64,000 nt of DNA, from assembly GCF_003550175.1 (NCBI RefSeq), contig NZ_QXDF01000001.1, positions 1,264,501 to 1,328,500 on the forward strand, read 5' to 3'. Shown here one piece after another: positions 8,667 to 29,360 of this stretch. The translations under genes and the position numbers were made by a program. Every line of letters starts with the position of its first letter. The stretch's first letter is position 1. Source of the DNA: Dichotomicrobium thermohalophilum (lineage in GTDB: Bacteria; Pseudomonadota; Alphaproteobacteria; Rhizobiales; Rhodomicrobiaceae). Under the pieces are notes generated by a model. The model did no database searches, was not told the DNA's origin, and worked only from the letters and a program-made list of their open reading frames with translations.

Positions 8667-8742
8667 TGGTGGAGCCGAGGGGAATCGAACCCCTGACCTC
8701 AGCAGTGCGATTGCTGCGCTCTCCCAACTGAGCTACGGCCCC
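8667..8742 (-). tRNA. tRNA-Ala (anticodon CGC)
   Basis: A full cloverleaf reads on the minus strand from 8742 to 8667. The acceptor GGGGCCG pairs with CGGCTCC (one G-T). The anticodon stem is CAGCA/TGCTG with loop ATCGCAC, so the anticodon is CGC. The T-arm is AGGGGTTCGATTCCCCT, and the 3' CCA is encoded. It should read the GCG codon. The GC-poor islet begins directly at its 3' side. Confidence 0.96.
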
Positions 8743-27211: not shown

Positions 27212-27342
27212 TTATGCGGCACGCGAATCAGCGTAATCGCAAAACCATGACGTGCAGTTGGGGATCGTGCGTTGGGCACGAGCTGGCGTCATCCGCCTGC
27301 AGGGGGCAGGCGGGATTTTGGGCCTATTGAGAGGGACTTTTC
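27212..27342 (+). promoter_or_regulatory. Promoter and structured leader of the first outer-membrane barrel gene
   Basis: TTATGC (27212-27217) and TAATCG (27234-27239) flank a 16-base spacer containing GCACGCGAATC. After it come ACCATGACGTGCAGTT, a hairpin TCGTGC/GCACGA, then GCTGGCGTCA, a second hairpin CCGCCTGC (27293-27300) / GCAGGCGG (27306-27313), and the ribosome binding site TGAGAGGGA. The same blocks in the same order precede the paralog at 28442, with different stem sequences. The promoter elements are weak by consensus; the leader similarity is plain. Confidence 0.6.
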
Positions 27343-28098
27343 ATGCGCAAACTGGTGTTTGGCGCCGCAGCTGCGGCGTGTCTCGGCATGGCCGCGCCGG
27401 CCATGGCGGGTGGTATGTATGACGGCTCGATGAAAGATGCGCCGGTTGAGCCAATCGTCCACGCTCCGATTTGGGCTGGTCTTTATGTTGGTGGCTCACT
27501 GGGCTTTGGCGTGGGCGACACTTCGGGGCAGCTCTGCTTTGATGGCTCGTGTCTGGATTTTCTGTCTTCTGACTATGATGTCGACGGTGCTGTCTATGGC
27601 GCGCACATCGGATATAACTGGCAGCACGGCCACAAGGTTTTCGGAATTGAAGCTGCTCTCAATGGCACAGATATTGATGGCAGTGAAGACTGTGGCCCAT
27701 TTTTCAATTTCACGACGTGTGAGCGTGAACTAGATTATTATGCCACGGTAGTTGGCCGGCTTGGTTACGCCGTAAATAACTTGCTGTTCTACGGGTTCGG
27801 TGGTGTTGCCTGGGGTGAAGTCGAGACGGATGTAAGCATCTTAGGTCAGAACCTGTTTGATGGCAGCGAAACCCATGTGGGTTGGACTGGCGGCATCGGT
27901 ATCGAGACTGCGCTCACTGAACGGTTCTTTGCGGGTGTTGAATACGCTCACGTTGATCTCGGTGAAGAAGACTTGTCTTTCGATATCTGTCATTGCGAAG
28001 GCACCGATAAAGTTGATATGGACTTTGACGTGATCAAAATTCGCGCGAGCTACAAGCTGTGGGACCGCGGCCAGGAGCCGCTGGAATCCTACAAATAG
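27343..28098 (+). CDS. Outer-membrane beta-barrel protein (Omp25/31-like), cysteine-bearing loops
   Basis: A 251-residue protein with a signal peptide (MRKLVFGAAAAACLGMAAPA, cut after AMA). An eight-stranded-barrel pattern of alternating aromatic strands follows: APIWAGLYVGGSLGFGVGD, GAHIGYNWQHGHKVFGIEA, YYATVVGRLGYAVNNLLFYG, WTGGIGIETALTERFFAGV. The predicted outer loops carry close cysteine pairs (LCFDGSC, DCGPFFNFTTC, ICHC), which may form disulfides. It is AT-richer than its neighbours. It is a paralog of the next gene, with which it shares its leader. It ends before a strong terminator, so it is transcribed alone. Confidence 0.85.
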   Translation: MRKLVFGAAAAACLGMAAPAMAGGMYDGSMKDAPVEPIVHAPIWAGLYVGGSLGFGVGDTSGQLCFDGSCLDFLSSDYDVDGAVYGAHIGYNWQHGHKVFGIEAALNGTDIDGSEDCGPFFNFTTCERELDYYATVVGRLGYAVNNLLFYGFGGVAWGEVETDVSILGQNLFDGSETHVGWTGGIGIETALTERFFAGVEYAHVDLGEEDLSFDICHCEGTDKVDMDFDVIKIRASYKLWDRGQEPLESYK

Positions 28099-28130
28099 GA
28101 CCTCGACTGATCCTCTGAGTCATCTCCTGG

Positions 28131-28160
28131 GCCGGGCCTTCGCGCCCGGCTCTTTTTTTT
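28131..28160 (+). terminator. Rho-independent terminator after the first barrel gene
   Basis: GCCGGGC (28131-28137) pairs with GCCCGGC (28144-28150), then TCTTTTTTTT. Confidence 0.92.
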
Positions 28161-28305
28161 GCTCGGCCACGGAGGCAGACGCCAACGCGCGATAATGCCG
28201 CTTGCTGGCAACCCTTTGTTTACGAACACCCTCGTTGTCCCCCGTTTCTGTCACATGCACGCAACAGTTGTCCCCAAACTCCTTCTGCAATCGACAAAAC
28301 CACTT

Positions 28306-28441
28306 TTGCCCGCACGCGAATCCGGGCTATGAACGCAACCATGACGTGCAGTTAAGTGGGATCACGCCATGGGGGCGTGGGCTGCCGTCAGGCGTCCGCA
28401 GAAGAGGCGGGCGGAACAAGTCACTCTGAGAGGGAGAAAAG
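28306..28441 (+). promoter_or_regulatory. Promoter and structured leader of the second outer-membrane barrel gene
   Basis: TTGCCC (28306-28311) and TATGAA (28328-28333) are 16 bases apart around GCACGCGAATC. Then follow ACCATGACGTGCAGTT, hairpin CACGCC/GGCGTG, GCTGCCGTCA, a short hairpin TCCGC/GCGGA and TGAGAGGGA before the ATG. Compared with the leader at 27212, single-stranded blocks are the same and stems differ while still pairing, suggesting a conserved RNA shape. The rest of the 343-base gap from 28099 holds only the terminator of the first barrel gene. Confidence 0.6.
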
Positions 28442-29287
28442 ATGCGCAAGCTCCTCTGCGGGGCTGTGGCCGCGGTGTGCATCGGCGCCGCCGGTCCAGC
28501 CATGGCGAATGGTTCCATGAAAGATGTCGTTGTTGTCGAGCCGGCTCCGCTCTGGTCGGGCTGCTATTTCGGCTTGAATGTCGGCGGTGCGTGGATGGAT
28601 GATCAGAATTACAGTGATGTCAAGAAATCGTACGGATTTTACGCTGACGACTATGAACACGCATACGACCATCACAATTCTAACAAAGGCTCGTCAGGCT
28701 ATTGGAAGACGGACTACGATGGCTACAGCTTCCACGATAATGTCGATGACTCGGGTCCGTTCGGTGGCGGCCATATAGGCTGTAATTTTGAGCGCGGCGC
28801 GTTCATCTTCGGCGTGGAGAGCGATATCGGTGTCGCGAACGATGTCGATTATCTCGCCTCGGTTCGCGGCCGGATCGGGACCGCCGCCTGGAGCCGCTCG
28901 CATCTGTACCTGACCGCCGGCGTGGCCTTCGCCAGCTTCGACCGCGATTTCAAGCTAAAGTATGAGCATGAAGGTCATGAATACTATCACCGTTACGACG
29001 AGGGCGATGACGAGACCGGTTGGGTGCTCGGCGCAGGCTGGGAATATCTCATCAAGGACAATATGAGTTTTGGTCTCGAAGGGCTCTATTACTGGTTCGA
29101 CGACGACTCCAGCAAGTATGAATGGATCGACAAATATGATGGCCCTAGTGGGTCCTGCGGCGATTCATGCGGCTACAGTCATCACTACCACGCCTACAAG
29201 TTCGACCGGGACGTCGATAACGAGGTCTTCGTGATCCGTGCGCGGCTGAGCTATCACCTGCGCCGTGCGCCGGAGCCGCTGAAGTAA
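28442..29287 (+). CDS. Outer-membrane beta-barrel protein (Omp25/31-like), histidine-rich loops
   Basis: A 281-residue paralog of the preceding gene, with nearly the same signal peptide (MRKLLCGAVAAVCIGAAGPA, cut after AMA) and the barrel strands WSGCYFGLNVGGAWMDD, GPFGGGHIGCNFERGAFIFG, WSRSHLYLTAGVAFASFDRD, TGWVLGAGWEYLIKDNMSFG and VIRARLSYHLRRA. Its predicted outer loops are unusually rich in histidine, tyrosine and aspartate (YEHAYDHHNSNKG, EGHEYYHRYDEGDDE, CGYSHHYHAYKFDRD). That suggests metal or pH-dependent binding, by inference only. It is followed by its own terminator. Confidence 0.85.
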   Translation: MRKLLCGAVAAVCIGAAGPAMANGSMKDVVVVEPAPLWSGCYFGLNVGGAWMDDQNYSDVKKSYGFYADDYEHAYDHHNSNKGSSGYWKTDYDGYSFHDNVDDSGPFGGGHIGCNFERGAFIFGVESDIGVANDVDYLASVRGRIGTAAWSRSHLYLTAGVAFASFDRDFKLKYEHEGHEYYHRYDEGDDETGWVLGAGWEYLIKDNMSFGLEGLYYWFDDDSSKYEWIDKYDGPSGSCGDSCGYSHHYHAYKFDRDVDNEVFVIRARLSYHLRRAPEPLK

Positions 29288-29328: not shown

Positions 29329-29360
29329 AGCCGGGCGTTCGCGCCCGGCTTGTATTTTTT
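29329..29360 (+). terminator. Rho-independent terminator after the second barrel gene
   Basis: AGCCGGGC (29329-29336) pairs with GCCCGGCT (29343-29350), then TGTATTTTTT. Its stem resembles the terminator after the first barrel gene, consistent with gene duplication. Confidence 0.9.

Follow-up and report, generated by a model that had tools for sequence, protein, structure and literature searches.

Why should two neighboring outer-membrane protein genes be preceded by the same series of short sequence blocks, interrupted by hairpins whose arms differ in sequence and yet pair? The two genes lie in tandem within the window (the whole stretch of 64,000 nucleotides that was analyzed), and each is followed by an intrinsic terminator:

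27343..28098, + strand: gene 1, outer-membrane beta-barrel protein, 251 aa (PF13505, E 4.6e-18)
28129..28160, + strand: intrinsic terminator 3′ of gene 1
28442..29287, + strand: gene 2, outer-membrane beta-barrel protein, 281 aa (PF13505, 27.1 bits, just below the 28.7-bit cut-off)
29329..29360, + strand: intrinsic terminator 3′ of gene 2

Because a terminator follows gene 1, gene 2 requires a promoter of its own, and the two genes would form separate transcription units. On the 5′ side of both, the same elements occur in the same order, namely GCACGCGAATC (block A), AACCATGACGTGCAGTT (block B), a hairpin, GCTGsCGTCA (block C), a second hairpin, and TGAGAGGGA; this arrangement was described in the original prediction, and its coordinates were confirmed. 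The leader features are as follows:

27219..27229, + strand: block A of gene 1, GCACGCGAATC, read as a putative −35/−10 spacer; identical in copy 2
27243..27259, + strand: block B of gene 1, AACCATGACGTGCAGTT, 5′ arm of the lower helix of hairpin 1; mRNA 5′ end predicted at ~27245-27247
27248..27291, + strand: hairpin 1 of gene 1, base TGACG/CGTCA plus CAGT/GCTG, upper stem TCGTGC/GCACGA
27293..27313, + strand: hairpin 2 of gene 1, stem CCGCCTGC/GCAGGCGG (predicted fold)
27328..27336, + strand: ribosome-binding site of gene 1, TGAGAGGGA, assigned by its spacing to the ATG at 27343
28312..28322, + strand: block A of gene 2, GCACGCGAATC, with a GANTC site at 28318-28322 (sequence)
28337..28353, + strand: block B of gene 2, AACCATGACGTGCAGTT; predicted mRNA 5′ end at ~28340-28341
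28342..28390, + strand: hairpin 1 of gene 2 (predicted fold)
28393..28413, + strand: hairpin 2 of gene 2, CGTCCGC/GCGGGCG (predicted fold)
28427..28435, + strand: ribosome-binding site of gene 2, TGAGAGGGA (sequence)

The likeness of the two copies begins abruptly at block A (the preceding 80 bases match at 25/80), and 72 of 95 leader bases are identical, with perfect blocks of 11, 17, and 9 bases and diverged loops between them. The reading that we prefer, and to which we give about an even chance, is that a CcrM/GcrA-type promoter produces an mRNA whose 5′ end is held in a stable hairpin resembling the ompA stabilizer. In this reading, we infer the start site, the promoter, the methylation control, and the mRNA stabilization.

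Predicted RNA Folds and Compensatory Changes

Both leaders are predicted to fold into the same pair of adjacent hairpins. The constant blocks had been thought to be unpaired; on the contrary, in the minimum-energy folds of both leaders, blocks B and C pair with each other, TGACG and CAGT of block B joining GCTGsCGTCA of block C as the lower helix of hairpin 1. The related claim that the stems differ and still pair proved partly right, in that pairing is kept, whereas the stems had been quoted out of register and there is no wholesale difference between them. In the correct register, stem 1b is TCGTGC/GCACGA in copy 1 and TCACGC/GCGTGG in copy 2, and hairpin 2 is CGCCTGC/GCAGGCG in copy 1 and CGTCCGC/GCGGGCG in copy 2. 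Since the MAFFT alignment misplaced hairpin 2, pairs were counted in the correctly registered alignment instead: none of the 22 pairs is broken between the copies, three show compensating double changes, and two show one-sided wobble changes. All eight stem changes are transitions, and pairing is preserved in every one.

Compared with dinucleotide shuffles, the segment spanning block B through hairpin 2 gave a folding z-score of −3.4 for copy 1 (0/500) and −3.8 for copy 2 (1/500). When eight random transitions were simulated, all pairs survived at a frequency of ~0.02, and the additional occurrence of at least three double changes reduced this value to ~0.001. The shuffle control of the covariation tool was weak with two sequences (65/500). 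Compensation between two sequences is suggestive, not strong. Taken with the folding z-scores, it lends modest support to selection on the RNA fold, the covariation from two sequences being thin; the proposed selection for an RNA shape thus keeps modest support, with the constant blocks paired rather than unpaired.

The inverted repeats could instead be DNA operators for a transcription factor, with no RNA structure involved, because GCACG in block A and CGTGC in block B lie ~32 bp apart. However, this spacing is 32 in one copy and 33 in the other, the hairpin arms change in a compensatory manner, and long arms with loops of 5–7 nt are atypical of operators, which makes an operator very unlikely. 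A role of hairpin 2 as a terminator or attenuator was ruled out because it has no conserved T run.

Sequence is conserved in the predicted fold as well as pairing. The lower helix of hairpin 1 is invariant, as is the GGGATC of its internal loop, and this invariance exceeds the needs of shape: pure shape selection would not demand it. A sequence-specific partner, either an sRNA or a protein, is possible. Either block B or the internal loop with GGGATC might then be recognized by an RNA-binding protein or a trans-acting sRNA that co-regulates both barrel proteins, and the mRNAs of outer-membrane proteins are classic sRNA targets, as in the case of MicA on ompA (PMC2777011). On the other hand, the genome contains no clear complement of block B, with one-mismatch reverse-strand matches equal to the control (6 and 6), block B lies within a helix, and the leaders have no Rfam match. 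We therefore regard such a target as unlikely; it is simpler to take block A as promoter DNA that carries a GANTC site and block B as the first part to be transcribed.

Age of the Duplication and a Probable Later Exchange

The similarity of the two leaders had been attributed to recent duplication, which does not hold. The same two genes stand in tandem in another genus of the family, where they are 58% and 40% identical to those described here, and this tandem pair in a sister genus dates the gene duplication to before the two genera separated. In keeping with that history, gene 1 shares in its mature part 61% identity with its orthologue and 41% with gene 2. In the signal peptides, 15 of 22 residues are common to genes 1 and 2, versus 7–10 of 22 shared with the orthologues. 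These sequence comparisons point to a probable exchange of leader plus signal peptide between the two genes after the duplication. The exchange is not recent, because the signal-peptide sequences of genes 1 and 2 agree at just 10/22 third codon positions; for comparison with the conservation of the leader, the remaining coding sequences of the two genes match at 52%. Perfect blocks of 11, 17, and 9 bases beside such diverged third positions point to purifying selection on the leader, and selection on the sequence blocks is supported, since they are better conserved than nearby synonymous sites.

These observations bear on a simpler explanation, in which an ordinary promoter and leader were copied between the paralogues by gene conversion, the stem differences are mostly tolerated chance, and there is no specific RNA function. 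It accords with the closer relationship of leader and signal peptide within the genome, with the orthology followed by the mature part of gene 1, and with the facts that the leader is found nowhere else in the searches described below and that the covariation is based on two sequences. Yet the exchange is not recent, and the perfect blocks are nonetheless identical among diverged loops; moreover, pairing is kept by every stem change. Gene conversion without RNA function is thus a possibility that we consider rather improbable. As in other shared 5′ regulatory cassettes of tandem paralogues, the leader and signal peptide are common and the mature barrels have diverged, whereas the compensated stem changes and the lack of a detectable copy in other species are peculiar to the present case.

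A Predicted GANTC-Containing Promoter

The preferred reading of a CcrM/GcrA-type promoter is based on block A, which in both copies ends in GAATC, that is, a GANTC (CcrM) site, followed in both by a −10-like element located 4–5 bases 3′ of it:

27225-27229, + strand: GANTC site GAATC in block A of gene 1 (sequence)
27234..27239, + strand: putative −10-like element TAATCG of gene 1, weak, placed by register with copy 2
28328..28333, + strand: putative −10-like element TATGAA of gene 2, inside GCTATGAAC (sequence)

The position 7 nt beyond the −10-like element is CCATG of block B in both copies, and a start site at CCATG would place GANTC between −35 and −10. In Caulobacter, GANTC between −35 and −10 typifies a class of cell-cycle-timed promoters (PMC4287350), and several GcrA promoters are crippled by mutation of GANTC (PMC3667746). 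The 64-kb window contains about one-third as many GANTC sites as expected (113 versus 307), an avoidance that would be the signature expected for a CcrM-methylated genome, and GcrA is encoded in the same genome (PF07750, E 2.1e-44). Block A may therefore be viewed as a sigma-70 promoter spacer whose GANTC site would be methylated by CcrM and read by GcrA together with RNA polymerase. Transcription would begin at the block B ATG or immediately 5′ of it.

The layout resembles that of the GcrA/CcrM promoters of Caulobacter (ctrA P1, podJ P2, and mipZ) in having GANTC between the presumed −35 and −10 elements, just 5′ of a −10-like element, in a genome that has gcrA and is depleted in GANTC. It differs in that the promoter is predicted here, the target is a pair of outer-membrane protein genes, and the extended motif YGAKTCK fits copy 1 only, on the minus strand; in copy 2, the bases flanking GAATC fit this motif on neither strand. 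A consensus promoter scan detected no promoter at this site, which has weak −10 and −35 elements. If the proposal is true, outer-membrane composition would be linked to the alphaproteobacterial cell-cycle clock that is based on DNA methylation.

Possible Function of the Structured Leader

Hairpin 1 starts about 4 nt or less from the predicted mRNA start. The 5′ arm of hairpin 1 would form the start of the mRNA, whose 5′ end would be base-paired, and hairpin 1 and the adjoining hairpin 2 would lock this end in a helix. About 28 nt containing the ribosome-binding site would be left largely single-stranded, which would keep the start site open; the centroid fold of copy 1 shows no pairing in the TGAGAGGGA stretch, and a weak 4-bp stem touches this stretch in copy 2. 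Such a locked 5′ end would shield the mRNA from 5′-end-dependent decay, as in the 5′ UTR of E. coli ompA. The ompA leader comprises a 5′-terminal stem-loop, a second hairpin, and a single-stranded ribosome-binding stretch. The leaders described here would likewise be long 5′ UTRs of barrel mRNAs with a predicted stem-loop near the 5′ end, a second hairpin, and a ribosome-binding stretch, but their hairpins are adjacent, their start site is predicted, they belong to another bacterial class, and the resemblance to ompA is one of layout. E. coli ompA mRNA is stabilized by its own 5′ UTR (PMC2777011), and both RppH and RNase E are hindered by paired 5′ ends and 5′ hairpins (PMC3997798). If the analogy is true, a second, unrelated outer-membrane protein mRNA would be protected by a 5′-terminal hairpin.

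The same predicted 5′ end raises the question of whether block B encodes a leader peptide (MTCS...) that is translated from a leaderless AUG and controls the downstream gene. ATG ACG TGC AGT occurs in both copies of block B at the predicted mRNA 5′ end, and the frame in copy 1 (MTCSWGSC...) has 27 codons, spans 27247-27330, and ends at the TGA of TGAGAGGGA. However, copy 2 reaches TAA after four codons, and the ATG has no ribosome-binding site before it. A leader peptide was dropped as the main reading because the frame is not conserved, and its existence seems highly improbable.

Searches for Further Copies

A covariance-model search for homologous leaders, as envisaged in the original prediction, returned none beyond the two source copies: in 150 genomes these copies scored 123 and 106 bits, the next best match scored 32.7 bits, and the best others lay inside coding frames, although the genomes searched included none of the same genus, and absence elsewhere may just reflect missing close relatives. 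Besides the two copies, a DNA search of 61 genomes yielded short GC-rich matches only. A scan of the genome collection with protein 1 gave no match, and a scan with the pattern TGACGTGCAGTT-gap-CTGNCGTCA found eight stretches versus an estimated ~13 expected, with no real relative among them; nearly all of the eight lie in open frames, with 13 bits or fewer at the site. Furthermore, plasmids yielded no match, none of this genome's other barrel genes has the leader, and no Rfam family matched 27212-28441 at gathering thresholds. Elsewhere in the window, Rfam reported a tmRNA match at 8667-8742 (−) and a match to the nematode snoRNA ceN40 at 2004-2077 (−); the former covers only 76 bases and is barely above threshold, and the latter is probably spurious.

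At present, the element is an orphan leader of one species with a plausible function. Most probably, it represents a lineage-specific promoter-leader cassette composed of known kinds of elements rather than a new class of system. The two leaders offer a clean natural pair for distinguishing shape from sequence in an mRNA leader.

The GAATC-CTA Layout at Other Barrel Genes

The upstream regions of 124 related barrel genes were compared. CTA follows GAATC at a distance of 2–7 nt in 8 of 48 GAATC sites, versus 0 of 67 other GANTC sites, and seven of these eight sites are located at −109 to −124, all seven within this family. When near-identical orthologues were counted once, the proportion was 5/45 (Fisher p ~0.009), an optimistic p-value since the pattern was spotted in the very data tested. 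GANTC occurs 18 times at −125 to −100, compared with ~9 in other bins, a weak positional enrichment to which no weight is given, because kin sequences are counted repeatedly and the control TCNGA peaks similarly. Individual sister-genus barrel genes with GAATC and then CTA at −109 to −120 are L162, L151, L137, L181, L176, and L184 (in G003, G005, G006, and G007).

It is tempting to speculate that, in this alphaproteobacterial family, a group of barrel genes owes its timing by replication to a GAATC-CTA promoter ~110 nt 5′ of the start codon and yields transcripts with long structured leaders, thereby coupling surface-protein synthesis to chromosome replication and mRNA stability; we consider this extension doubtful. 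The family's other GAATC-CTA promoters have no clear hairpin at the predicted start. In favor of the preferred reading of the leader, the sister-genus orthologue retains the layout in another sequence, with a GAATC at −115 preceding two neighboring hairpins (TGAGCG/CGCTCA and GCGGA/TCCGC), but its fold is only marginally better than that of shuffles (z −2.0; whole leader z −1.0).

Hairpins were also observed in other leaders. Those of L151, L137, and L162 contain a hairpin such as GGGAAAGCC/GGTTTTCTC, which varies among orthologues and still pairs, and may be structured. In another group of barrel genes (L022, L027, and L028), a GGAGCG/CGCTCC hairpin directly precedes TGAGGGGGA, ~50 nt 5′ of the start codon, and changes in its upper stem preserve pairing.
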